In this document: positions 3-12,991 of the stretch, in pieces
Position numbering within the stretch: the first letter of the stretch is position 1
Layout of the letters: each line of letters begins with the position of its first letter
From: Clostridia bacterium
Lineage (GTDB): Bacteria; Bacillota; Clostridia; Christensenellales; Aristaeellaceae
Direction of reading: 5' to 3'
Assembly: GCA_017512985.1 (NCBI GenBank)
Contig: JAFWEJ010000002.1
Coordinates: forward strand, 124,001 to 188,000
DNA length: 64,000 bases
Program-made: the position numbers and the translations under genes
The notes under the pieces: model-generated
What the model saw: only the letters and a program-made list of their open reading frames with translations
What the model was told of the DNA's origin: nothing
Database searches by the model: none

Positions 3-986
3 GGCAAACAAAACAGACCTGAGGAATACCGGCAGGCATTGATGGAAGATTTGCCACGGCAGGATTGTGAAAGATGTATGGAGGCAATTGGAAACTGGGA
101 GAAACTGGATTATTACAGAACCAAAGTTGAACTGAATGGATTTTTGACCAATTATGTAAATAAAATAATAGTCCATAGCGATGAAGCAAAAAAGAAACTG
201 TTGGAGAAAAATATAGGACGCTCTGTCAGATGTATACGTCACTACGCGAAGATTGAACCGCTGACTGATTCAAAAAGTGCCAAGAAAAAAGTTGGCATTG
301 ATCCTGATAAGATCGTTTTGGCAGCTTTTGGAGGTGTTCATCAGACAAAAAGAGTTATTCCCATTCTTCATGCATTTGCGAAAATATGTGAGGAGAACGA
401 TCATATTCAGCTGGTATTTGGAGGGAAACTCGACGGTTCCATTGAAACCGAATTCATGAATACTCTCAACGATCTGCACTTACAGGACAAGGTTCAGGTG
501 ACCGGCTACCAAGATTTGGCTGTTTTTCTTGAATATATGGACGCTGCTGATATCTGCCTTAATTTGCGCTGGCCGTACAACGGCGAGACCAGTGGCAGTT
601 TGATGCGAATGCTGGCAAAAGGGAAGTGTATAATTGTCAATAATATTGGCAGTTTTGCTGAAATTCCGGATGATACGGTCATAAAACTGCCTTCTGCTGA
701 AATAATGAATAATAAGGAGGAAGTGCATCAGATATATAAAGCGCTTCATACTCTCTGTGAAAATGCTGATCTCAGGGGGAAAATTTCCTGTAATGCGAGG
801 AAATACGCAGAAGATAACCTTGATATCAAAACGATTGCAAGACAATATGAAGAATTTATATTGGCAGCTCCGAACAATCTGATCAACGAAGAATTGCTAG
901 CGGCACTGCATAAAAAAGTATCAGAGTTGCACATGGACGAACAGGATGTCGTTCGGCTGGCACGCACATTGGCGTACATCATGTGA
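3..986 (+). CDS. Glycosyltransferase family 4-like protein, 5' end outside window
   Basis: The frame is open to the left edge, so the gene starts outside the window; the visible 327 codons are the second half of a GT-B glycosyltransferase. The C-terminal Rossmann domain is clear: a strand-loop segment IVLAAFGGVHQTKR, then VTGYQDLAVFLEYMDAADICLNLRWP and the nucleotide-sugar segment GETSGSLMRMLAKGKCIIV ending in the EIPDD loop. Such enzymes move a sugar from a nucleotide donor to a glycan or lipid acceptor on the cytoplasmic face. Its neighbours are glycan genes, which fits capsule or exopolysaccharide assembly. The DNA is noticeably AT-rich compared with the rest of the window, suggesting acquisition. 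Donor and acceptor cannot be predicted. Confidence 0.8.
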   Translation, partial: GKQNRPEEYRQALMEDLPRQDCERCMEAIGNWEKLDYYRTKVELNGFLTNYVNKIIVHSDEAKKKLLEKNIGRSVRCIRHYAKIEPLTDSKSAKKKVGIDPDKIVLAAFGGVHQTKRVIPILHAFAKICEENDHIQLVFGGKLDGSIETEFMNTLNDLHLQDKVQVTGYQDLAVFLEYMDAADICLNLRWPYNGETSGSLMRMLAKGKCIIVNNIGSFAEIPDDTVIKLPSAEIMNNKEEVHQIYKALHTLCENADLRGKISCNARKYAEDNLDIKTIARQYEEFILAAPNNLINEELLAALHKKVSELHMDEQDVVRLARTLAYIM

Positions 987-1315: not shown

Positions 1316-2431
1316 ATGAAACCATATGATTATCTGATCGTCGGGGCAGGGCTATATGGTGCGGTATGTGCCCGGGAACTGACGGACGCAGGGAAAACCT
1401 GCCTGGTGATCGACAAACGGGAACATATCGCGGGAAACGCGTATACGGAGCGGGTGGAAGGAATCCATGTGCACCGGTACGGCGCGCACATCTTCCATAC
1501 CAATAACAGCGAAGTATGGGACTATGTACAGCGTTTTGCGGTTTTTAACCGGTTCATAAACACCCCGGTGGCAAACTGGAAGGGGGAGATCTATTCCCTG
1601 CCTTTCAATATGTATACTTTCCGCCAGATGTGGGGCGTGGAGACGCCGGAGGAGGCGTCCGCGAAGATTGAGGAACAGCGGAAGGCTGCCGGGATCACGG
1701 AGCCGAAGAACCTGGAGGAGCAGGCGCTCTCCCTGGTGGGTCGGGACATCTATGAAAAACTGATCAAAGGCTATACCGAAAAGCAGTGGGGACGGCCCTG
1801 CGATCAGCTGCCGGCGTTCATCATCAGAAGGCTGCCCGTGCGGTACACCTTTGACAACAACTATTTTGACGCGCTGTACCAGGGAATCCCTGTTGGCGGA
1901 TATACCAAAATGGTTGCCGGCATGCTGGATGGTATCGAAGTGCGGCTGGGCGAGGATTATCTCGCCGGTAAGGCGAAATGGGATGGGATGGCGGAGCGGG
2001 TGATCTATACCGGGCCGATCGACGCGTATTTCGGTTACTGCCTGGGCAGCCTGGAATACCGCTCGGTTCGCTTTGAGACAGAGGCGCTGGATAGCCCGGA
2101 TTTCCAGGGGAATGCCGTTGTGAACTATACCGATGCGGAGACGCCCTGGACGCGGATCATTGAGCACAAGTGGTTTGAGTTCGGGAAGGACGAGAACGGA
2201 AACGACCTGCCGAAGACGGTAATCTCCAGGGAATACAGTTCCGAATGGAAACCGGGGGACGAACCGTATTACCCGGTGAATGACGAAAAGAACGGAAGGC
2301 TGTATGCGGAATACCGGAAGCTTGCGGACAGGGAGCAGAAGGTGGTCTTCGGCGGTCGGCTGGGCGAGTACCGGTATTATGATATGGACCAGGTGATCGC
2401 GGCTGCGCTGAATATGATTAAGGGATTGTAA
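1316..2431 (+). CDS. glf: UDP-galactopyranose mutase (copy 1)
   Basis: Flavoenzyme that converts UDP-galactopyranose to UDP-galactofuranose, the donor for Galf in surface glycans. The 371-residue length is usual. The N-terminus has the FAD-binding motif VGAGLYGAVCARE followed by the family block GNAYTE...VHRYGAHIFHTN. Further family blocks are SLPFNMYTF, GYTEKQWGR, DNNYFDALYQGIPVGGYT, YTGPIDAYF and the C-terminal GGRLGEYRYYDMDQVI. The ATG is preceded by a weak AAGG. A second copy lies at 8704-9822, very similar throughout; the two bracket the acyl-transfer cassette. It should supply UDP-Galf to neighbouring glycosyltransferases. Confidence 0.95.
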   Translation: MKPYDYLIVGAGLYGAVCARELTDAGKTCLVIDKREHIAGNAYTERVEGIHVHRYGAHIFHTNNSEVWDYVQRFAVFNRFINTPVANWKGEIYSLPFNMYTFRQMWGVETPEEASAKIEEQRKAAGITEPKNLEEQALSLVGRDIYEKLIKGYTEKQWGRPCDQLPAFIIRRLPVRYTFDNNYFDALYQGIPVGGYTKMVAGMLDGIEVRLGEDYLAGKAKWDGMAERVIYTGPIDAYFGYCLGSLEYRSVRFETEALDSPDFQGNAVVNYTDAETPWTRIIEHKWFEFGKDENGNDLPKTVISREYSSEWKPGDEPYYPVNDEKNGRLYAEYRKLADREQKVVFGGRLGEYRYYDMDQVIAAALNMIKGL

Positions 2432-2496
2432 TCAGCCGGACAGCTCGGAATACCTGAAGAAAGAATTAAACACGAATGTATCAGGAAGAGGATAAA

Positions 2497-4596
2497 ATGA
2501 AGATCAGAAAACTGTTGCGCGTCCCGGTATTTGTCATTCTTCTTGTTCTATTCCTGATTCTTTCTGGACGGCTGCTTCGTCCGGTCTGGTATGACTGGAA
2601 CAATTATCATACGACCCATGATTTTTATCTGGAACCGGACAACAGGATCGAAGCGGTTTTCCTGGGATCGAGTGTTGTGGTAAACGGAATTTCCCCTATG
2701 CAGCTGTATGAAGAATATGGACTCTGTGCTTATAATCTTGCCACAGAGCAGCAACCCGTGAGTGCATCGTGGGTCTGGCTGCAGGAAGTATACAGACTGC
2801 ACCAGGATACGCTGAAAACTGTTGTGATTGACGCATCCATGCTTACACATGAACCGGAAAGCAGTGCCTTTTTTCTGAAAGCAATTGACCGGATGCGGAA
2901 TTCCACGGCCAAGCAGGAAGCGCTTCATGAATATGCCAAAGATGAAAATGACTGGATCTCGCTTCTTTTTCCATTGTTTCATTATCATGACAGGTGGAAA
3001 GAGCTGGAGCCGACGGACTGGAAGCAGGATGAAAGCATTAACAGCACCCGCGGTTATAATCTGGTAACAGAAAGATGGATAGACTGTGAGACGGCGGAGG
3101 ATCCGGCGCTGCCGCAATACGGTTATGATCCGGATTGCGACGCAACGGAGTTGGCCGTTTCTTCCCTGGAATACTTTGACAGAATTGTGTCGTTCTGCCA
3201 TGAACATCAACTTCAGCTTGTTTTGTCTAAAGCACCTACAGCAAATTGGAGTTCGTCGGCGCATAAAGCAATTCAGGAATTGGCAGGTAAGCATCAGATT
3301 CAATTTTTTGATTTCAATTTCACACCATATATTGATCAGCTGGATTTCCGGTTTCTGCTGGATCTGACAGACGGGCACCATATGAACTGTTATGGCGCGA
3401 AAAAATATACGCACTGGTGGGGGGAATGGCTGTCCGGGAACTCGGAATGCGAAAACAAAAAGGGCAAAAGCGGATATGAATATCTGGAGACACAGCTCAC
3501 GGCGTACCGGAAGCAGAGTATGGCGGCGGTTGAGCTGGCAGACTGCCGGGACGTGACGGAATATATCCGGTACGCGAAATCAATCGAGAACAGCGCGGTG
3601 CTGATGGCGGTCTGTGATGAAGGCACAGACGCCCTTACGGAAGAACAGAAAAAAAAGATGGAAGAAGACGGCCTGGGCAAGCTCGCCCGGCTGAACTACC
3701 GCGATTCATACGTCGCGTACATCCAGGACGGGGAAGTTGTTTTTGAAATGGATCAGCGGGACGCGGATAGCGCGGAGAACGCGGACGCCTCTTTAAGCGT
3801 CGACTTCCTGCTTCCGCGAAAGCAGCGGGTGAATATGCAAAGCTGTGGAACGGGGCATGGCGACGCTTTTTCATCGATAACCGTTGACGGGGTTGAGTAC
3901 TGCCTGAACCAGCGGGGGATCAATATTGTTGTTTATGATTATCTGAACGGTGCCGTTGTCAATTCCACCTGTTTTGATACATGCGTATCTCCGTACAGGG
4001 AGGCAGACTATGAAACCCGGTATGCTCATGCCCTGAAGAACGGAACGCCAGCGGATGCCATGGATGAAAAGCTTCGGGAGCTGTATCTTTATAACCGGCG
4101 TTATGATAACTGGAAACAGGTTTATCAATGGAGAACTGAAAGCTCTTCCATGTCATTCTTTTCATGGCTGGAACCCTGGATAAGCAGTAAGGGATACACC
4201 GTATTCATTTCTGTTATGGATGAAGCGTCCGACAGCCTGACAGAGGACAACCGGGACGGAATGCTGGGGCTGGGTCTTGCAGCGCTTTCCGGGATTGAAT
4301 ACAGGGACTCCTACATAGGGATTATCAATGACGGATCCGTGTCATACGAAGAGCTGGATCACGGATATGAACCCATTGAGTGGTCGGGAGTTGACTGCCT
4401 GGTAAAAAGCGGCGGAATGGATTCGGGTAATGTAAGCTCGGTGATGATCTGTGGGAATGAATATTCAATATCAATGCGGGGCCTTAACTGTGTAGTTTAT
4501 GACAAAGAACTGAAAGAAGTGGTTGACACAGTTGCCTTCGATACATTTGCAGCCCCGATTGATATGGAATACAAGATGAGGGACGATTTTATATGA
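2497..4596 (+). CDS. Membrane-anchored SGNH-like protein with duplicated ILEI/PANDER-like motifs
   Basis: I take ATG 2497, served by AGGAAGAGG at 2483-2491; an in-frame ATG at 2476 has no ribosome binding site. Residues 8-27 are one membrane segment, so the body is extracytoplasmic. Residues about 50-310 resemble the SGNH domain of DltD/AlgX-type proteins: FLGSS with Ser58 as candidate nucleophile, and DGHHMN as candidate Asp/His block. Such proteins work with MBOAT acyltransferases, and one follows at once with an ATGA overlap. The C-terminal half carries two motifs twice: DE-x-x-D-x-LTE followed by YRDSY (near 3616-3700 and 4219-4310), and G[IL]N-x-VVYD followed by FDT (near 3914-3980 and 4478-4550). 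These resemble ILEI/PANDER domains of eukaryotic FAM3 and POMGNT1, where the fold can bind sugar. Here it may hold the glycan acceptor; the domain assignment is inference. Confidence 0.7.
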   Translation: MKIRKLLRVPVFVILLVLFLILSGRLLRPVWYDWNNYHTTHDFYLEPDNRIEAVFLGSSVVVNGISPMQLYEEYGLCAYNLATEQQPVSASWVWLQEVYRLHQDTLKTVVIDASMLTHEPESSAFFLKAIDRMRNSTAKQEALHEYAKDENDWISLLFPLFHYHDRWKELEPTDWKQDESINSTRGYNLVTERWIDCETAEDPALPQYGYDPDCDATELAVSSLEYFDRIVSFCHEHQLQLVLSKAPTANWSSSAHKAIQELAGKHQIQFFDFNFTPYIDQLDFRFLLDLTDGHHMNCYGAKKYTHWWGEWLSGNSECENKKGKSGYEYLETQLTAYRKQSMAAVELADCRDVTEYIRYAKSIENSAVLMAVCDEGTDALTEEQKKKMEEDGLGKLARLNYRDSYVAYIQDGEVVFEMDQRDADSAENADASLSVDFLLPRKQRVNMQSCGTGHGDAFSSITVDGVEYCLNQRGINIVVYDYLNGAVVNSTCFDTCVSPYREADYETRYAHALKNGTPADAMDEKLRELYLYNRRYDNWKQVYQWRTESSSMSFFSWLEPWISSKGYTVFISVMDEASDSLTEDNRDGMLGLGLAALSGIEYRDSYIGIINDGSVSYEELDHGYEPIEWSGVDCLVKSGGMDSGNVSSVMICGNEYSISMRGLNCVVYDKELKEVVDTVAFDTFAAPIDMEYKMRDDFI

Positions 4597-6332
4597 TTTT
4601 TACAGACTATCTTTTCTTTCCGTTTGTTTTGCTGGCGCTTCTGTTCTATTTTATCCTTCCCCTGCGAGCCAGATGGATCGGACTGCTGGTTTTCAGCTTG
4701 GTTTTCTTTTGTACATGGGGGTTGGATTATTGTCTGGTTGTCCTGTTGATTACATTTATTGCCTGGCTTGCCGGGATTGTTATTGATTCCCGAAATCATA
4801 CCCGGACAAAAAGGAAAAATGGGGAAGCATCAGAAACGAAAAGCAGTCTGGAGGCCGGAGAATCTGAAAGCCGGAGAAAAAAGCAGAATAGAATCATCCT
4901 GTTGGTTTCAGCGGTTGTAATCATACTGGTGTTGGTTTATGTCAGAACACAGCAGAATCTGATTGCCGCGGGATTTTTTGAACCGGTTGTAAGAACGGTG
5001 TCCGGCTGGAACGCTGCCATCCGCGGTTGGCTGGGCACCATTCCTTACCTGGGGGAGTTGGTGAGCGGCGGAAAGGGATGGAATACAGCACTGTTCCAGT
5101 GGATCTTCGGGTTTAAAAACGCGACGGATAAAACGGCTGTTGTCCAGTCGGTTGTATACACCTGGATTGTCCCCGTGGGGATTTCTTATTATGTTCTTTC
5201 CCTGATAGGATACCTGGCGGATATATACTGGAAAAAGCAATGCGCAGAACGGAACTATTTCAAACTGCTGCTTTTTGTCCTGTATTTTCCAAAGATTCTT
5301 GAAGGACCCATTTCAAAACATCGGATTGTCGGTCCGCGACTTGTGGAAGGACATAGATTTGATTACACCCGGGTTTGCTTCGGATTGCAGCGAGTGGTCT
5401 GGGGATTTTTCAAGAAACTGGTGATTGCGGATCATCTGTCGTTCCTGGTGAATGAGGTGTTTGGGAACTATCAGGCGCATGTTGGTTCTGAGTTTCTGCT
5501 GGCGGCTGTATTGGGAACGGTGCAGCTGTATTGTGATTTTTCCGGGTGCATGGACATTGCGCTGGGAGTATCCGAGTGCTTTGGCATTCAACTGGAGGAA
5601 AATTTCAGGCAACCGTTTGCCTCCTGTTCAGTAGCGGAATTCTGGAGGCGCTGGCATATTACCCTGGGGGTCTGGTTTAAGGATTATGTCTTTATGCCGC
5701 TTGTGATATCTCCAAGACTGATGAGGATTTCCGGCTTCCTGCGGGAAAGAATCGGGAAACGAGCCGGGAAGAACTTCATGACAGTCATTCCACTGGCTGT
5801 TGTCTGGCTGCTGACCGGATTGTGGCATGGAACCGGGAAGAATTATCTGCTTTGGGGCATATACTGGGGCGCGCTAATCAGTTTATCCACCGTATTTGAT
5901 CCGGAGATCAGGAAACTGACCAAATGGCTGAAGATTGATACAGACTCAGAAGGTTTTCGCTTTTTCCGGAAGAGCAGGACATTCTGTTTGTTTGTGATTG
6001 GCAGGTTCATAACGATTCCGGGTTCTCTGGCGGTGTCTTGGTATACAGCGCAATCCGTTTTCACGGATTTTACTCCGTTGAGGCTGGTGGACGGGAGTAT
6101 TTTCACACTGGGCATCGATTGGCCGCGGTTTATCGTGACGCTGCTTGCGGCTGCGCTGGTCGGTTTTGTTGGAAGCAAGCGAGAAAAAGGTGTACATATC
6201 CGAGAATGGATTGCAGCAAGGCCGTTACTGATCCGTTGGGCAATCTATTACGCCATTATTTTTGCTGTATTGATCTTTGGAGCATATGGACCGGGCTATG
6301 ATGCCAGTTCATTTGTTTATATGCGGTATTGA
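4593..6332 (+). CDS. MBOAT-family membrane O-acyltransferase (DltB/AlgI-like)
   Basis: A polytopic protein of 579 residues that should move an acyl group across or at the membrane onto a glycan or polymer. It begins in ATGA overlap with the SGNH gene. About ten membrane segments are visible. MBOAT signatures are CDFSGCMDIALGVSE, FRQPFASCSVAEFWRRWHITLG and, near the C-terminus, TGLWHGTGKNYLLWG, whose His is the usual catalytic residue. A long charged loop (residues about 65-105) separates the first helices from the core. AlgI and DltB are the nearest known roles; with a carrier protein and an AMP ligase directly downstream, a DltB-type mechanism taking its acyl group from a carrier protein is more likely than acetyl-CoA-driven acetylation. 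Confidence 0.9.
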   Translation: MIFTDYLFFPFVLLALLFYFILPLRARWIGLLVFSLVFFCTWGLDYCLVVLLITFIAWLAGIVIDSRNHTRTKRKNGEASETKSSLEAGESESRRKKQNRIILLVSAVVIILVLVYVRTQQNLIAAGFFEPVVRTVSGWNAAIRGWLGTIPYLGELVSGGKGWNTALFQWIFGFKNATDKTAVVQSVVYTWIVPVGISYYVLSLIGYLADIYWKKQCAERNYFKLLLFVLYFPKILEGPISKHRIVGPRLVEGHRFDYTRVCFGLQRVVWGFFKKLVIADHLSFLVNEVFGNYQAHVGSEFLLAAVLGTVQLYCDFSGCMDIALGVSECFGIQLEENFRQPFASCSVAEFWRRWHITLGVWFKDYVFMPLVISPRLMRISGFLRERIGKRAGKNFMTVIPLAVVWLLTGLWHGTGKNYLLWGIYWGALISLSTVFDPEIRKLTKWLKIDTDSEGFRFFRKSRTFCLFVIGRFITIPGSLAVSWYTAQSVFTDFTPLRLVDGSIFTLGIDWPRFIVTLLAAALVGFVGSKREKGVHIREWIAARPLLIRWAIYYAIIFAVLIFGAYGPGYDASSFVYMRY

Positions 6333-6353
6333 CAGGAAGAGGGGGACAATGTC

Positions 6354-6581
6354 ATGAAAGAGAAAGTATTGGCGCTTCTGAAGGACGAATTTCCTGAGAT
6401 CGATTTTGAATCGTCATGCGCGCTGGTGGACGACGGAATCCTAGATTCCCTGTCGATTACGGGGATCATCGCGGTCCTGTCGATGGAATTTGGGATCATT
6501 ATTCCCTATGAAGAGATCGTTGAGGACAATTTCAACTCGGTGGACGCGCTGGCGGACATGGTGGAGAGGCTTCGGGGATGA
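6354..6581 (+). CDS. Acyl/aminoacyl carrier protein (DltC-like)
   Basis: A 75-residue acidic carrier protein. The phosphopantetheine site is Ser in GILDSLSITG at about residue 32; family proteins are modified here by a 4'-phosphopantetheinyl transferase. A strong ribosome binding site, AGGAAGAGGGGG, lies upstream, 21 bases after the MBOAT stop. It is more like DltC and stand-alone peptidyl carrier proteins than the fatty-acid ACP at 26334, which has a different Ser motif. The next gene overlaps by ATGA, so ligase and carrier are coupled in translation. It should accept the activated acyl or aminoacyl group from that ligase and present it to the MBOAT enzyme. Confidence 0.88.
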   Translation: MKEKVLALLKDEFPEIDFESSCALVDDGILDSLSITGIIAVLSMEFGIIIPYEEIVEDNFNSVDALADMVERLRG

Positions 6582-8683
6582 ACAGTACGAACAGATTTGA
6601 CACACTGCTCCGCAGGGTTAGCGAACTGGCGGAGGCCTGTCCAGACAAGGCGGCGGTGATTTTTAAGGGAGAGACGCTGACTTATGCCGGGCTGTTCCGC
6701 TGTGTGCTGGATATGGCGGCTGTGCTGAAGAAACAGGGTGTGCTTCCCGGGGATCGTGTATGCTTCTCGGCGGTGTCCAGGCCGGAAACGGTGATCGCTT
6801 ATCTGGCCGTGCATGCCTGCGGCGGGGTCACGGTATGCCTGGACAAGGGAGCGACGCCGGAATATATGGCGGAGATCTTTGCCCTGTCAGGTGCCCGGCT
6901 CCTCCTGACGGACAAGCCAATGAAGGAGGCCGGGGAACGCTGCCGCGTGCTTTCGCTCCGCGAGACCTGCGGGGGCCCGGCGGAGGCCGGCCGGCAGGCG
7001 GCGGGCGCACGGCCGGAGAGCCTGCTTCCGGCGGACGGGGAAATGCCGGCAGATATCCTCTTTACCACCGGAACGACCGGAAAACCAAAGGGCGTGATCC
7101 TGTCCCACAGGGCGGTTTATCATATCCTGGACAATACGATCCGGGGATGCGGTTATTCGGAGCGCACGGTCATGCTGTTGCCGCTGCCCCTGAACCATTC
7201 CTTTGCGCTGCGTGTCCTGCGCGCCGTGCTTTACTGCGGCGGAACAGTGGTGCTGCAGAACGGCTTCACCTTCGCGAAGGAAGCTGAAAAAAACATCCTA
7301 GAATACGGATGCAATGCGGCGGCCTGTGTGCCAGCTTCCTGCGAAGTGCTGAAAAGCCAGATGCAGGACGCGTTTCAGGGCGTGATGTCACACCTGGAAA
7401 TCCTGGAGGTCAGCGCGGGCTCACTGTCCGCTGCCCGGCGGGAGGAACTGGTTCGGCTGCTGCCGGGCGTACGGATCATGAATGTCTGGGGCAGTTCCGA
7501 GAGCGGCGGAGCGATCTTCTGCAATGTGAACGAAGCGGTGAAGGACCGGCGGACGGCCGGATCGCTCGGGCGAGCGCTGGACGGCGTGGAAGTGATGTTC
7601 CTGTCCGCGACGGCTCCTTTTGACTGTCCGGAGCAGATGTGCGGCCGTCTCCGGGGCTGGCAGGCCGAAAGTGACGCGGCGCATCCGGGGAGAATGGCGA
7701 TCCGCGGGAATATGGTCATGTCCGGCTACTGGGAAGCGCCGGAGAAAACGGCGGAGACGCTGATCGACGGCTGGCTGGTTACCGGGGATATGGCTTACGC
7801 GGACCAGGAGGGGAATCTCTTTATGCTTGGGCGCGCGGACGACCTGATCAACATGGGCGGGGAGAAGATCTCGCCCTTTGAGATCGAAAACGACGCGGGC
7901 CGGTATGAACATATCCGGGATTGTGCCTGTATCGGTGTGGAAGACACGCTCCTCGGCCAGGTGCCCGTGCTGTTTGTTGTGACCGGAATGGGTTACGATG
8001 AGAAAGCGTTTCGGCAGTGGCTGAGCGGGAAGATCGAAAAAAACAGGCTGCCGCGGACGATCATCACGGTGGAGGAGATCCCGCGGAACCGGATGATGAA
8101 GACCGACCGTGCCGCCCTGCGGAAAATGTGGGAGAACAAGGAAACGCTGGCGCTGATGAATCCGGTGATTGACGCGATCCTTTCCCGCCGCAGCGTCCGG
8201 AGGTTTACGGATCGGGAGATCCCGAAGGAGACGCTGGATATGCTGCTCAGGTGCGGATATCACGCGCCCAGCGGGCATAATATGCAGAGCTGGCGATTCA
8301 CGGTGCTGACAAAGGAAGCGGATATCCGGCGCTTGAAGGAAGCGGCGGTTACGGCCGCGAAGGAGAACCGGATCCCGGTTTACGGTTTTGAGAACCCGAA
8401 GGCAATGATCCTGATCTCAAACGACAGCCGGAATCCGGACGGCTGCCAGGACGCCAGCTGCGCGGCGGAGAACATCATGCTGGCGGCACAGAGCCTCGGG
8501 CTGGGGAGCGTGTGGCTGAACGTGCTGATGAAACTGAGGCACGCGGAGCCGGTGAAAACGCTGCTGGACGGGTTCGGGATACCGGACACCCATACCGTAT
8601 GGGCCTCAATCGCGCTGGGATGGCCGGTGGCGGAAGCGGCCGGGCTTCAGAAGAATCCGGATGTTGTCAGGTTTGTGGAGTAA
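6578..8683 (+). CDS. AMP-forming acyl/amino acid ligase fused to a nitroreductase domain
   Basis: One 701-residue frame with two enzymes. Residues 1-520 are an ANL-superfamily adenylating enzyme: phosphate loop FTTGTTGKPKG (about 161), NVWGSSESGG, GWLVTGDMAY, the hinge GRADDLINMGGEKISPFEIEN and the catalytic Lys in RNRMMKTDRAAL. Residues 527-701 are a nitroreductase-fold flavin domain: AILSRRSVRRFTDREIP, HAPSGHNMQSWRF and AAQSLGLGSVWLN. No stop or credible internal start separates them; the Met at codon 527 has only a distant, weak Shine-Dalgarno. It overlaps the carrier gene by ATGA. The ligase should load the carrier; the flavin domain may oxidise or reduce the bound group. DltA itself has no such domain. 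The substrate is unknown. Confidence 0.88.
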   Translation: MNSTNRFDTLLRRVSELAEACPDKAAVIFKGETLTYAGLFRCVLDMAAVLKKQGVLPGDRVCFSAVSRPETVIAYLAVHACGGVTVCLDKGATPEYMAEIFALSGARLLLTDKPMKEAGERCRVLSLRETCGGPAEAGRQAAGARPESLLPADGEMPADILFTTGTTGKPKGVILSHRAVYHILDNTIRGCGYSERTVMLLPLPLNHSFALRVLRAVLYCGGTVVLQNGFTFAKEAEKNILEYGCNAAACVPASCEVLKSQMQDAFQGVMSHLEILEVSAGSLSAARREELVRLLPGVRIMNVWGSSESGGAIFCNVNEAVKDRRTAGSLGRALDGVEVMFLSATAPFDCPEQMCGRLRGWQAESDAAHPGRMAIRGNMVMSGYWEAPEKTAETLIDGWLVTGDMAYADQEGNLFMLGRADDLINMGGEKISPFEIENDAGRYEHIRDCACIGVEDTLLGQVPVLFVVTGMGYDEKAFRQWLSGKIEKNRLPRTIITVEEIPRNRMMKTDRAALRKMWENKETLALMNPVIDAILSRRSVRRFTDREIPKETLDMLLRCGYHAPSGHNMQSWRFTVLTKEADIRRLKEAAVTAAKENRIPVYGFENPKAMILISNDSRNPDGCQDASCAAENIMLAAQSLGLGSVWLNVLMKLRHAEPVKTLLDGFGIPDTHTVWASIALGWPVAEAAGLQKNPDVVRFVE

Positions 8684-8703
8684 GGGAAAGGAACAGCAGG
8701 CAG

Positions 8704-9822
8704 TTGGAGCGGTATGATTACCTGATCGTGGGCGCCGGACTCTACGGAGCGGTCTGCGCACGGGAACTGGCGGACGCGGAAAAGAAGGTCCTGGTTGTGG
8801 ACCGGCGGCCGCACGTCGCCGGGAACGCGTATACGGAGGATGTGGACGGGATCCATGTCCACCGCTACGGCGCGCATATCTTCCATACGAATGACGAAAC
8901 CGTATGGCGGTATGTGCAGCGCTTCGCTGCCTTCAACCGGTTCACGAACTCGCCCGTGGCGCGGTATGGCAATGAGGTCTACAGCCTTCCCTTCAATATG
9001 TACACGTTCAATCAGATGTGGGGCGTGACGACGCCGGAGGAGGCGGCCGCGAAGATCGCGGAGCAGCGGCGGGAGATCGCCGGGGAGCCCCGGAACCTGG
9101 AGGAGCAGGCCATCTCGCAGGTGGGCCGGGATATCTATGAAAAACTGATCAAAGGCTATACCGAGAAACAGTGGGGCCGGGACTGCCGGGACCTGCCGCC
9201 GTTCATCATCCGGCGGCTGCCGGTCAGGCTGACATATGACAACAACTATTTCAACGCCCTGTACCAGGGGATCCCGGTGGGCGGCTACACCCGGATGGCG
9301 GAAAGGATGCTGGAAGGCGTCGAAGTCCGGCTGGGTGTGGATTACCTGGAGCATCGGCAGGAGCTGGACGCGCTGGCCGAACGGGTGATCTATACCGGGC
9401 CGGTGGACGCGTATTTCGGATACTGCCTGGGGCCGCTGGAATACCGGTCCGTCCGGTTCGAGACGGAGACGCCGGACACGGACAACTTCCAGGGGAACGC
9501 GGTGGTGAACTATACCGACCGGGAGACGCCCTGGACGCGGATCATCGAGCACAAGTGGTTCCAGTTCGGAAAGGACGATGCCGGAAAAGACCTGCCCGGT
9601 ACGGTGATCTCCAGGGAATACAGCGCCGAGTGGAAACCCGGGGATGAACCGTATTATCCCGTGAACGATGAAAAGAACGGTGCGCGGTACGCCGGGTACC
9701 GGGCACTGGCCGAAAAGGAGGCAGGGACCGTCTTTGGCGGCCGGCTGGGCGAATACAGGTATTACGATATGGATCAGGTTATTGCATCTGCGCTGGAAAA
9801 AGTAAAGGAACTGAAAGCATAA
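8704..9822 (+). CDS. glf: UDP-galactopyranose mutase (copy 2)
   Basis: Same enzyme as the gene at 1316, here 372 residues. I choose TTG 8704 because the family sequence begins there (LERYDYLIVGAGLYGAVCARE); the frame runs open further upstream inside the nitroreductase domain, where it has no family resemblance. AAAGGAA at 8687-8693 is a candidate ribosome binding site about ten bases upstream. By eye about three quarters of residues match copy 1, with the FAD motif and Galf blocks intact, and the codons here are richer in G+C. It follows the ligase stop by 20 bases, so it probably belongs to the same transcript. Two active-looking copies suggest gene duplication or recruitment of two related glycan modules. 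Confidence 0.93.
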   Translation: MERYDYLIVGAGLYGAVCARELADAEKKVLVVDRRPHVAGNAYTEDVDGIHVHRYGAHIFHTNDETVWRYVQRFAAFNRFTNSPVARYGNEVYSLPFNMYTFNQMWGVTTPEEAAAKIAEQRREIAGEPRNLEEQAISQVGRDIYEKLIKGYTEKQWGRDCRDLPPFIIRRLPVRLTYDNNYFNALYQGIPVGGYTRMAERMLEGVEVRLGVDYLEHRQELDALAERVIYTGPVDAYFGYCLGPLEYRSVRFETETPDTDNFQGNAVVNYTDRETPWTRIIEHKWFQFGKDDAGKDLPGTVISREYSAEWKPGDEPYYPVNDEKNGARYAGYRALAEKEAGTVFGGRLGEYRYYDMDQVIASALEKVKELKA

Positions 9823-9862: not shown

Positions 9863-10912
9863 ATGGGACAGGCAGTGTTTTCTTTTCTGGGATACCTGGT
9901 CCTTCAGTTCTTTGTTCTGTTTGCTGGGATGAATATGGTGCGGGAGGAGCGGATTGGCTTTTCAGGGCTGCTGAAGTCCTGGGTCATGGGGCAGATGCTC
10001 CTGTTTGCCCTGCTCCAGGTCATGGCTGTTCCGATGATCCTGCTGAAATGGGAGTTCAGCGTGCTGTTCTGGAGCTATCTTGGGGCTTGCGCCGTTTTGT
10101 CCGGGTCCGGGCTCATGAGGCTGGCAAAGCGGAAAATGGTATCGCTGAAAATGGATCGGCAAGCGTTTTCCGTGCTGGCGGTGCTCCTTCTTGTGCTTGC
10201 GGCCGGGTTGATCCTGTGGCAGGCCGGGACCTATTTTTTCGGAATCCATCTGGATGAGGACGACGCCCGCTGGCTGGCGCAGGCGAACGACGCGCTGGAA
10301 TACGGCCACATGATGACATGCGATCATGACACGGGAGAATATCTCGGGGTGTTTCCGGTGGTCAAGGATGTGACGTCTCCCTGGCCGATGATGTTCGCAG
10401 TCTGCAGCAGGATCCTCCGGATCAGGGCTTCTGTCTTCGCGCACACTATCTATCCTCCTGCCGCCCTGCTGACGATGTATGCCGTTTACTGGCTGATGGC
10501 TTCCGAGCTGTTTGAGAAAACCGAGGCGAGACTGGCATTCCTTTTCTTCGCTGCGCTGATCAACCTGTTCCTGGGCATTACGGTGTTCACACAGCAGACT
10601 TTTTCGCTGGTGCGGATCTGGCAGGGGAAAGCGACGGTCGCGGCGATCGTTATTCCATTGCTGCTCTGGCTTTTTATCCGGATCAACAAACAGGATGAAA
10701 ACAGGGACTGGTTCAGCCTGCCGGTGGTCTGCTGCGCGGCATGCCTGATGTCCGGCATGGGGATCTCGATCACCGCGGTGATGACTGCGGTCTATGGAGG
10801 ATATCACATCATCGCTTACCGCCACTGGAAAAGAATTCTCCATGCGGTACTGGCGGTGCTTCCGTCAGTGGTTTCTTTGGCGGTTTACCTGATCTTCAGG
10901 CCGCTGTTCTGA
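9863..10912 (+). CDS. Polytopic membrane protein, GT-C/DUF6077-like first half
   Basis: A 349-residue protein with about nine hydrophobic segments. The start has GGGGAGGTGA upstream. After the fourth segment comes an outside loop with an acidic cluster HLDEDDARWLAQAND, of the kind seen in the first large loop of GT-C glycosyltransferases, which use polyprenyl-phosphate sugars. It ends abruptly after a membrane segment. The next gene, 29 bases on, starts with more membrane segments and ends in a soluble domain, so the two may together form what other species make as one chain. Family membership (possibly DUF6077) is a guess. Context suggests glycan assembly or export. Confidence 0.55.
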   Translation: MGQAVFSFLGYLVLQFFVLFAGMNMVREERIGFSGLLKSWVMGQMLLFALLQVMAVPMILLKWEFSVLFWSYLGACAVLSGSGLMRLAKRKMVSLKMDRQAFSVLAVLLLVLAAGLILWQAGTYFFGIHLDEDDARWLAQANDALEYGHMMTCDHDTGEYLGVFPVVKDVTSPWPMMFAVCSRILRIRASVFAHTIYPPAALLTMYAVYWLMASELFEKTEARLAFLFFAALINLFLGITVFTQQTFSLVRIWQGKATVAAIVIPLLLWLFIRINKQDENRDWFSLPVVCCAACLMSGMGISITAVMTAVYGGYHIIAYRHWKRILHAVLAVLPSVVSLAVYLIFRPLF

Positions 10913-11809: not shown

Positions 11810-11839
11810 TATATATTGGGGAGGAAGGGAGATCTGTAT

Positions 11840-12406
11840 ATGGCCTTTGAATTTGAGCGTACCGGGCTTCCCGGCGTGGTGATTGTCCGTCCCGCTGTGT
11901 TCGGCGACAGCCGGGGATACTTTATGGAAACCTACAGGAAGGAACAGTTCGCGGAAGCCGGGATCACGGCTGAGTTCGTGCAGGACAATGAGAGCTCCAG
12001 CACGAAAGGCGTGCTGCGGGGACTGCATTTCCAGAAAGAGCATACGCAGGGAAAGCTGGTCCGGGTGACCCGGGGAACCGTGTTCGACGTCGCGGTGGAC
12101 GTCCGTCCGGGATCCGCGTTTTTCGGGAAATGGACAGGCGTTGTGCTTTCCGAAGAGAACAAGCGGATGTTCTACGTGCCGGAAGGATTCGCCCACGGTT
12201 TCCTCGTGCTGAGCGACACGGCAACCTTTGCGTATAAGTGCACCGATGTGTATGACCCTTCCTCCGAAGGCGGGATTCCGTGGAACGACCCGGATATCGG
12301 GGTGGAATGGCCGGAGCTGGACTGTGAATACAGGACGAGTCCAAAGGACGCCGCGCATCCGTCGTTCAGGGAACAGGACTTCGGATGGGCGGCAAAATGG
12401 GAATGA
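11840..12406 (+). CDS. rfbC: dTDP-4-dehydrorhamnose 3,5-epimerase
   Basis: Cupin-fold enzyme of dTDP-L-rhamnose synthesis that epimerises C3 and C5 of the 4-keto sugar. The 188 residues match the usual size. Family motifs are DSRGYFMETYR, FVQDNESSSTKGVLRGLHFQ with the catalytic His, GKLVRVTRGTVFDVAVDVR and FYVPEGFAHGFLVLSD. I choose ATG 11840, after GAGGAAGGGA at 11821; an in-frame TTG 24 bases upstream would place that site inside the gene. The reductase rfbD is at 37901 on the other strand; rfbA and rfbB are not in the window. It likely supplies rhamnose to the surface glycan. Confidence 0.95.
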   Translation: MAFEFERTGLPGVVIVRPAVFGDSRGYFMETYRKEQFAEAGITAEFVQDNESSSTKGVLRGLHFQKEHTQGKLVRVTRGTVFDVAVDVRPGSAFFGKWTGVVLSEENKRMFYVPEGFAHGFLVLSDTATFAYKCTDVYDPSSEGGIPWNDPDIGVEWPELDCEYRTSPKDAAHPSFREQDFGWAAKWE

Positions 12407-12469: not shown

Positions 12470-12991
12470 GTGTATGTGTACTGCCTGTTCTGCCTGACGC
12501 AGCGGTGCAGGGTGATCGCGCAGCTCATGGAGATCCGCGGGGCATACCGGGCTTTTTCTCCGCGGATCATCCGGAAACAGAGGAAGCAGGGCGAAAACAT
12601 TCAGAAGCAGTTTGACCTGTTGCCGGGATATGTGTTCGTCTACAGCGAGGAGCGCATAACGGACTACCGGGAATTCTTCGGCATGGACGGGGTGATCCGG
12701 CGGGTCGGCCGGACGGAAACCGGGTATGAACTGGCCGGACCGGATTACGACTTTGCGATGAAGCTGCTGGAGAGGGACGGGGTCGTCGGCGGAATGAAGG
12801 CCTGCCGCCTGGGCGACGAAGTCACCCTGGAGGATCCGCTGTTCAGCGGCTGTGAGGGGAAGGTCGCCGCTATCGACTACCGGAAGGAACGGGCCAAAGT
12901 GGCCTTTGTGTTTGACAATACAAAACGGGAAATCTGGGTATCGCTGGACGGGGTGAAGCACCTGTCCGCGCCGGAAGGGGAGCTGGTATAA
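12470..12991 (+). CDS. NusG-family specialised elongation factor (LoaP/RfaH-like)
   Basis: A 173-residue NusG paralogue: NGN domain (residues about 1-95, with FDLLPGYVFVYSE and MDGVIRRVG) and a KOW domain (GDEVTLEDPLFSGCEGKVAAIDYRKERAKVAF). Start is GTG 12470 after GGAGAGGAGGG. Paralogues of this size placed in glycan or antibiotic clusters of Firmicutes are LoaP proteins, which ride on RNA polymerase and stop early termination in long operons. The position at the edge of the glycan island fits that. The general NusG would normally sit beside secE and rplK, which are absent here. Its target leader cannot be told from sequence alone. Confidence 0.8.
   Translation: MYVYCLFCLTQRCRVIAQLMEIRGAYRAFSPRIIRKQRKQGENIQKQFDLLPGYVFVYSEERITDYREFFGMDGVIRRVGRTETGYELAGPDYDFAMKLLERDGVVGGMKACRLGDEVTLEDPLFSGCEGKVAAIDYRKERAKVAFVFDNTKREIWVSLDGVKHLSAPEGELV

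Follow-up and report, generated by a model that had tools for sequence, protein, structure and literature searches.

A putative carrier-fed glycan acylation cassette with a fused ligase and nitroreductase in a clostridial polysaccharide locus

The cassette and the conservation of its fused enzyme

The window analyzed here, a 64,000-nucleotide stretch (contig C15, positions 124001-188000) of the 2.63-Mb genome of a Clostridia bacterium (17 contigs, 89.7% complete), carries near its start six genes on the plus strand in the order glf, SGNH/ILEI, MBOAT, carrier, ligase::nitroreductase and glf. ATGA overlaps join the SGNH gene to the MBOAT gene (4593-4596) and the carrier gene to the ligase gene (6578-6581); in all of this an earlier note on the same DNA had described the locus correctly. 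The core comprises four genes, SGNH (with two ILEI domains), MBOAT, carrier and ligase::nitroreductase, which probably form an ATP-driven, carrier-fed cassette that acylates a glycan with a redox-altered non-amino acid. Gene identities were taken from Pfam and NCBIfam profile matches, except those of the SGNH domain (fold only) and of the carrier, which falls just below its Pfam cut-off. The six genes are as follows.

1316-2431, plus strand: glf1, UDP (uridine diphosphate)-galactopyranose mutase, context (TIGR00031, 410.8 bits, cut-off 303.75)
2476-4596, plus strand: SGNH-like acyltransferase domain followed by two ILEI-like domains, membrane-anchored, 706 residues (PF15711, 5e-18; fold)
4593-6332, plus strand: MBOAT acyltransferase with C-terminal FVYMRY and an LWHG histidine (PF03062, 8e-13)
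6354-6581, plus strand: acyl carrier protein, with its Ser in DDGILDSL (PF00550, 20.1 bits against a cut-off of 20.8)
6578-8140, plus strand: AMP (adenosine monophosphate)-forming acyl ligase domain (PF00501, 4e-58; PF13193, 2.5e-10)
8141-8683, plus strand: FMN (flavin mononucleotide) nitroreductase-family domain, C-terminal and fused to the ligase (PF00881, 6.6e-28, residues 534-682)
8704-9822, plus strand: glf2, UDP-galactopyranose mutase, context, probable TTG start (TIGR00031, 408.1 bits, cut-off 303.75)

The GTG start listed for glf2 at 8512 falls inside the ligase gene, and homology to glf1 places the start instead at the in-frame TTG at 8704.

A scan of genome contigs matched 587 stretches (579 relatives), the best 80 of which comprised 17 fused and 63 non-fused loci. 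There are thus at least 17 fused ligase-nitroreductase homologs in other genomes (loci L104-L118, L137 and L156), thirteen titled Lachnospiraceae and the other four Eubacterium or Clostridiales, with rumen or gut named in many of the titles. Each can be aligned with almost the entire window protein, at 40-58% identity, and the 18 sequences show 60% mean column identity. A carrier gene, in every case encoding the LDS motif, was found in the examined flank of all 17, in 16 of them 500 bp or less from the ligase; an MBOAT gene (E<1e-20) in 12, a thirteenth (L108) being cut by the contig end; and an SGNH homolog in 8. Given that both 10-kb flanks were present for only 5 of the 17, absences from these flanks carry little weight, and the gene caller, which was trained on the window locus, misses genes in AT-rich genomes (none were called in L113). 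Recurrence in 17 other genomes places the association of the fused protein with a nearby carrier beyond chance.

The nitroreductase domain belongs to PF00881 and is a predicted FMN enzyme. It matches Protein Data Bank (PDB) entry 3ek3 at 1.4e-23, with no close characterized relative among the matches seen. Across the 18 proteins 34 of its 162 columns are invariant, its mean pairwise identity (0.56) is comparable to that of the ligase domain (0.51), and the two domains diverge in step (Spearman 0.76, 153 pairs). Conservation that matches that of the ligase suggests that the domain has been selected as part of the same protein, and its presence in 18 proteins makes the flavin fusion a conserved feature and not an accident. 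The extra flavin domain, which the earlier note set against the dlt model, is supported.

At the thresholds used, no second fused protein was listed in searches of the genus (45 genomes), family (308), order (396), class (391) or phylum (398) with the whole ligase-nitroreductase, where the genome sets overlap, the order search was run at an over-strict 1e-68, and the larger runs scored two to three candidates per genome. Phages, plasmids and viral contigs likewise gave no match to the ligase-nitroreductase at the thresholds used.

Acyl relay, carrier and cargo

The MBOAT carries both the LWHG histidine and, at its C-terminus, the hexapeptide FVYMRY, a variant of FXYXXF that ends in Tyr and not Phe, as would be expected of an MBOAT that works with an SGNH partner. 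The shuttle-type hexapeptide is thus on the MBOAT itself and not on a DltX microprotein, with the proviso that no separate search for a DltX gene was made. PatA is reported (PMC12148441) to auto-acetylate a Tyr in its C-terminal FXYXXF hexapeptide, from which the acetyl group passes to an SGNH protein, and PatA-type pathways are described there as acyl-coenzyme A (acyl-CoA) fed; in the Dlt pathway the hexapeptide belongs to DltX and a carrier serves as donor, the other MBOAT/SGNH pathways being carrier-free.

Among 75 distinct complete MBOAT C-termini, 64 fit FXYXXF and 73 fit FXYXX[FY], the final-Tyr variant making up 9 of the 73, and the two exceptions are L074 and an MBOAT on contig C7 of the window's own genome (L090, ending FAYQFV). 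All 13 termini from 12 fused loci (one of them from the second MBOAT of L107) fit the broader pattern, 9 of them the stricter one. Of the 41 MBOATs whose gene has a same-strand carrier gene no farther than 3.5 kb away, 40 fit FXYXX[FY] and 31 fit FXYXXF, these 41 being relatives of this cassette and hence a biased sample. The 40 carrier-adjacent proteins with a shuttle peptide indicate that carrier-fed MBOATs with a shuttle of their own form a recurring class.

The carrier gene itself stands between the MBOAT and the ligase genes, where a PatA-type pathway would have no dedicated carrier. Read from the sequence, then, the wiring is a hybrid, carrier-fed as in Dlt and with the shuttle fused to the MBOAT as in Pat. 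In a literature surveyed mostly at the level of abstracts, we found no published case of a ligase fused to a nitroreductase, nor of a fused-shuttle MBOAT that is fed by a carrier.

The model of the SGNH/ILEI protein (predicted local distance difference test, pLDDT, 79.5) gave as its best fold matches PatB (7tlv, E 4e-4) and DltD (6pfx, E 1e-3), with weaker matches to FAM3B and POMGnT1. The candidate catalytic residues are Gly64-x-Ser66, Asp296/Asp299 and His302; in an alignment of ten proteins H302 was invariant and G64, S66 and D296 nearly so, and fold and conservation together identify a Ser/Asp/His partner of the SGNH type. Pfam found GDSL in one of these ten relatives and ILEI (PF15711) in seven. 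One ILEI stretch of the window protein is above threshold, the second copy coming from the model and the alignment; for this second domain no solved relative was found by sequence at E<=0.1, and its fold match was weak. Sugar binding has been reported for the POMGnT1 stem and FAM3C (PMC9802357), which is the ground for our guess that the ILEI domains hold the glycan. In one relative (L111:2943-5042) the SGNH gene is broken by a single in-frame stop.

The ligase domain carries the A4 motif PLPLNHS, Arg212 and the A10 Lys508, and both PLPLNHS and Arg212 are invariant in the 18 aligned fused proteins, that of the window and those of the 17 loci. Adenylation domains of the amino-acid type, such as those of nonribosomal peptide synthetases (NRPSs) and DltA, hold the alpha-amino group of the substrate with an Asp. 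None of the 18 proteins has an acidic residue in the motif, and a profile alignment with LgrA sets Ser208 opposite the alpha-amino-binding Asp of that enzyme. Arg212 falls, in the same alignment, at what we take to be a pocket position, and the A4 histidine presumably places the enzyme in the class of acid-activating ligases. Among the fold matches of the modeled fused protein (pLDDT 84.1; predicted template modeling score, pTM, 0.65) the first 12 places are taken by malonyl- (MatB), feruloyl-, oxalyl/oxalate- and o-succinylbenzoyl- (MenE) CoA ligases. By contrast, FDFDVS stands at A4 in three of four sister cassettes with a GNAT or pyridoxal phosphate (PLP) decarboxylase gene, namely in the main ligase of each of L094, L096 and L098; that of the fourth, L099, differs.

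An A4 motif that lacks the amino-acid-type Asp, together with the invariant Arg, suggests that the cargo is a non-amino acid, perhaps dicarboxylic; the Arg, if it lies in the pocket, and the CitMHS-type transporters encoded beside three related ligases would be in keeping with an acid that bears a second negative charge. Amino acids, which the earlier note had entertained as cargo, were considered and rejected on the contrast between PLPLNHS, without Asp in 18 of 18 proteins, and FDFDVS in the sister cassettes.

These data also bear on whether the cassette might simply carry out Dlt-type D-alanylation, or some other aminoacylation, of a teichoic-acid-like polymer, with the flavin domain as a passenger. 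The four roles of ligase, carrier, MBOAT and SGNH protein are the same, the upstream locus includes an alanine dehydrogenase gene, LgrA, an amino-acid NRPS, heads the solved structures by summed sequence score, and DltB is the best NCBIfam model for the MBOAT and DltC the second, after AsbD, for the carrier. However, all of these models score below their cut-offs, DltB (TIGR04091) at 133.3 bits against 375 and DltC (NF003464) at 27.5 against 68; in the best single stretch LgrA reaches 162 bits and MenE 235; the A4 motif is without an acidic residue throughout although sister cassettes with FD exist; and the shuttle peptide is fused to the MBOAT instead of residing on DltX. By the four features tested (DltB, DltC, the A4 Asp and DltX) the cassette is not a Dlt system, and we regard D-alanylation as very improbable.

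Surroundings and the galactofuranose question

The cassette sits within a polysaccharide locus of the ABC (ATP-binding cassette)-exported, Wzm/Wzt type. In the upstream 20 kb (L012) Pfam identified CotH, alanine dehydrogenase, a sugar-phosphate transferase, ManC, two GDP_Man_Dehyd-family genes, an ABC-2 permease (Wzm), Wzt with a Wzt_C domain, an FkbM methyltransferase and a glycosyltransferase (GT); a PglF-like dehydratase, one GT2-like and two GT4-like genes were read off the translations alone. The alanine dehydrogenase gene (L012:6737-7852) lies in mid-locus and adjoins the sugar-phosphate transferase gene. The remaining features of the window locus, on either side of the six genes, are listed below.

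3-986, plus strand: GT4-type glycosyltransferase, 5' part beyond the window, closing the upstream polysaccharide block (PF00534, 1.5e-11)
9863-10912, plus strand: DUF6077 membrane protein, context (PF19554, 1.9e-78)
11816-12406, plus strand: rfbC, dTDP (deoxythymidine diphosphate)-4-dehydrorhamnose 3,5-epimerase, context (PF00908, 1.5e-73)
12470-12991, plus strand: LoaP/NusG-like antiterminator, context, at the downstream end of the locus (NF033641, 62.7 bits, cut-off 125)

GC content at third codon positions is mosaic, 0.54 for the SGNH and 0.53 for the MBOAT gene, 0.76-0.79 for ligase, nitroreductase and glf2, and 0.38-0.50 for the block from ManC to the GT. Among the fused relatives, glycan genes were confirmed by Pfam near L110, L112, L115 and L118 and, by similarity to the window locus, near L156; comparisons that were not exhaustive showed no clear glycan locus at L106, L107, L108 or L111. 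A carboxyl-transferase gene (PF01039, L107:10042-11592) adjoins the fused cassette of L107, and one is likewise found near the cassette on contig C7 of the window's own genome. Three neighbors elsewhere (L114:127-843, L115:8524-9594 and L091:2550-3395) gave no Pfam match.

Given that two glf genes bracket the window cassette, the earlier note had proposed a system dedicated to galactofuranose (Galf), in which the cassette would decorate Galf residues specifically. Both copies score above the TIGR00031 cut-off; they are 76.3% identical in amino acid sequence and are the only two glf found in the genome. Beyond the window the linkage is seen at L112, where glf is directly upstream of SGNH-MBOAT and the cluster also holds a Wzt-like::Glf fusion gene. 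This last (L184:8342-10264, minus strand, G1433:C1) is one open reading frame that joins an ABC ATPase (PF00005) to a UDP-galactopyranose mutase (NAD_binding_8 and PF03275, residues 270-613), and it may represent a coupling of exporter and mutase. On the contig of L118 a glf is situated past a NusG-type gene, about 20 kb away from the ligase; a NusG-domain gene was recorded near this locus at L185:19281-19790.

Against a dedicated system, glf occurs in the flank of just 1 of the 17 fused and none of the 63 non-fused loci, with many contigs short, and it is common in these genomes in any case. It was looked for in the genomes of 36 of the 80 loci, comprising the whole fused set of 17 and, as controls, 19 of the 63 non-fused loci; glf was present in 15 of 17 and 11 of 19, respectively (Fisher p 0.065, confounded by taxonomy), and in all 9 controls titled Lachnospiraceae or its genera. 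We therefore rejected Galf dedication as a general rule and consider it unlikely that the cassette targets Galf residues as such; the glycan of the window and that of L112 plausibly contain Galf, which does not define the machine. The earlier note had itself raised the doubt that the glf genes might be chance neighbors, and glf does look like a neighbor within the locus; its companion doubt, that ligase and carrier might elsewhere lie beside unrelated genes, is answered the other way, as these mostly stay with MBOAT and SGNH. What stands of the original proposal is a dlt-like machine running from carrier to MBOAT to SGNH, with an extra flavin domain, in a glycan locus that also makes UDP-Galf.

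Proposed mechanism, acyl modules and known systems

Our working model is as follows. The AMP-ligase domain would adenylate a non-amino carboxylic acid and load it on the phosphopantetheine of the carrier; the fused nitroreductase would then shift the oxidation state of the acid, most likely as the thioester, for example by saturating or desaturating the bond beside the carbonyl. The MBOAT is predicted to accept the acyl group from the carrier and transfer it through the membrane to the Tyr of its own FVYMRY, from which the SGNH domain would take it as an acyl-serine and esterify a hydroxyl of the polysaccharide that the surrounding Wzm/Wzt locus makes and exports, with predicted deoxyhexose and Galf sugars, while the ILEI domains may hold the glycan. 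We read the relay as dlt/Pat-like on account of the shuttle-type hexapeptide and of an SGNH fold closest to PatB and DltD. Gene order, domains, motifs, the hybrid wiring and the conservation of fusion and carrier come directly from sequence or fold; the class of acid, the redox role and the acceptor glycan are our inferences.

Several observations weigh against this reading, in addition to the rank of LgrA noted above. An NRPS domain appears at fold rank 13 of the ligase model, and the pocket position of Arg212 is read from sequence alignment only. In the window the SGNH domain is invisible to Pfam and was recognized by fold, with one match at E<=0.001. The nearest solved relatives of the nitroreductase domain have no stated reaction, and we know of no biochemistry for any member. 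Finally, at L119 a closely related MBOAT and ligase occur with neither a nitroreductase nor a detected carrier, no MBOAT was detected within 10 kb on either side of the fused ligase and carrier of L115, and none in the 20 kb of L118 on its contig.

Nitroreductase-family enzymes act on many small molecules, and it was not unreasonable to consider that this one works on the acid ahead of loading, while it is still free, or that it is a general flavin oxidoreductase fused for co-regulation only, the delivered acyl group then being unaltered by it. The sister cassettes L119 and L140, which lack a nitroreductase, fit such a scheme. Set against it are the carrier gene near all 17 fused ligases and a nitroreductase domain as conserved as the ligase itself, and we judge this alternative somewhat unlikely.

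L115 and L118, for their part, raise the possibility that the acyl group, once loaded, serves other purposes. At L115 (L115:8524-18481) the fused ligase and carrier lie in a NeuB-containing sugar cluster, an arrangement that hints at use of the acyl carrier inside the cell, and both loci would be accommodated if ligase and carrier served a diffusible metabolite or the N-acylation of an intracellular sugar, with MBOAT and SGNH separately fed by acyl-CoA. The tight gene overlaps and the linkage to MBOAT at 12 of 17 loci argue against such separate feeding, which appears improbable. We accordingly retain the carrier-fed glycan acylation cassette as the probable reading.

The non-fused relatives show what may accompany the same export genes elsewhere. 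The flanks of the 63 non-fused loci yielded carrier in 40, MBOAT in 23, SGNH in 22 and a separate nitroreductase-like gene in 1. That gene (L123:4399-5451) is about 2.8 kb away from a non-fused ligase in the same A4 class group, and the pair may represent these two functions in unfused form. Several ligase-carrier-MBOAT-SGNH sets were found in the same genus and family, with no glf or nitroreductase match. Extra genes identified by Pfam include a CitMHS-type transporter (L029, L100), an NMT1-type ABC importer (L032), a PLP decarboxylase (L098, L099), a GNAT (L094, L096) and a hexapeptide transferase (L101); at L031 a CitMHS-type transporter gene lies beside the ligase, with a carrier/MBOAT set elsewhere on the contig (L097). 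Similar sets were read from the sequence at L033, L035 and L102.

In the window's own genome, contig C7 (L090:7627-15999, L091:355-6711) holds a second SGNH-ILEI/MBOAT pair adjoining a small fatty-acid-synthase-like set of ketoacyl synthase III (KASIII), short-chain dehydrogenase/reductase (SDR), acyltransferase, carboxyltransferase, carriers and two ligases. The G1433 cluster that holds the fused L112 cassette also contains a non-fused carrier/ligase/MBOAT set (L184:343-6524, minus strand), in whose SGNH position stands a 481-residue protein (L184:3536-4978) without a Pfam match; this polysaccharide locus may apply two different acyl groups.

We tentatively propose, as a possibility that goes further than the reading of the window cassette, a modular system of carrier-based acyl editing for the surface glycans of bacteria. 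In such a system an export module that stays constant (a carrier, an MBOAT that contains its own shuttle Tyr, an SGNH protein and often ILEI) would be paired with interchangeable acyl modules (a flavin nitroreductase, a PLP decarboxylase, a GNAT, a citrate-type transporter, an ABC importer or a small fatty-acid synthase), each strain writing a different acid on its glycan, and in the window the acid would be redox-edited on the carrier before export. Such editing is not described for any Dlt- or Pat-type pathway in the papers found. If acyl modules do vary in this way, gut and rumen bacteria may decorate their surface glycans with acids nobody has sought, with consequences for interactions with phage, host and antimicrobials. 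The fused enzyme also allows redox editing of a carrier-bound acyl group to be tested directly.

Set beside known systems, the cassette resembles Dlt (DltA-DltC-DltB-DltX-DltD) in placing an AMP ligase, a carrier, an MBOAT and an SGNH partner in one operon, with an acyl-Tyr relay expected; it differs in that its ligase is of a non-amino-acid type and fused to a nitroreductase, its shuttle Tyr is at the MBOAT C-terminus and not on DltX, its SGNH protein has ILEI domains, and it lies in a Wzm/Wzt polysaccharide locus. With PatA-PatB and AlgI/AlgJ-type pairs it shares an MBOAT with a fused FXYXXF-like peptide and an SGNH fold closest to PatB, but it has its own carrier and ligase, whereas those pairs are carrier-free and acyl-CoA fed according to PMC12148441. 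Its ligase shares the fold and presumably the A4 histidine class of stand-alone MatB-, MenE- and feruloyl-CoA-ligase-like enzymes; unlike them, it is tied to a set of genes for transmembrane glycan acylation and carries a fused nitroreductase.

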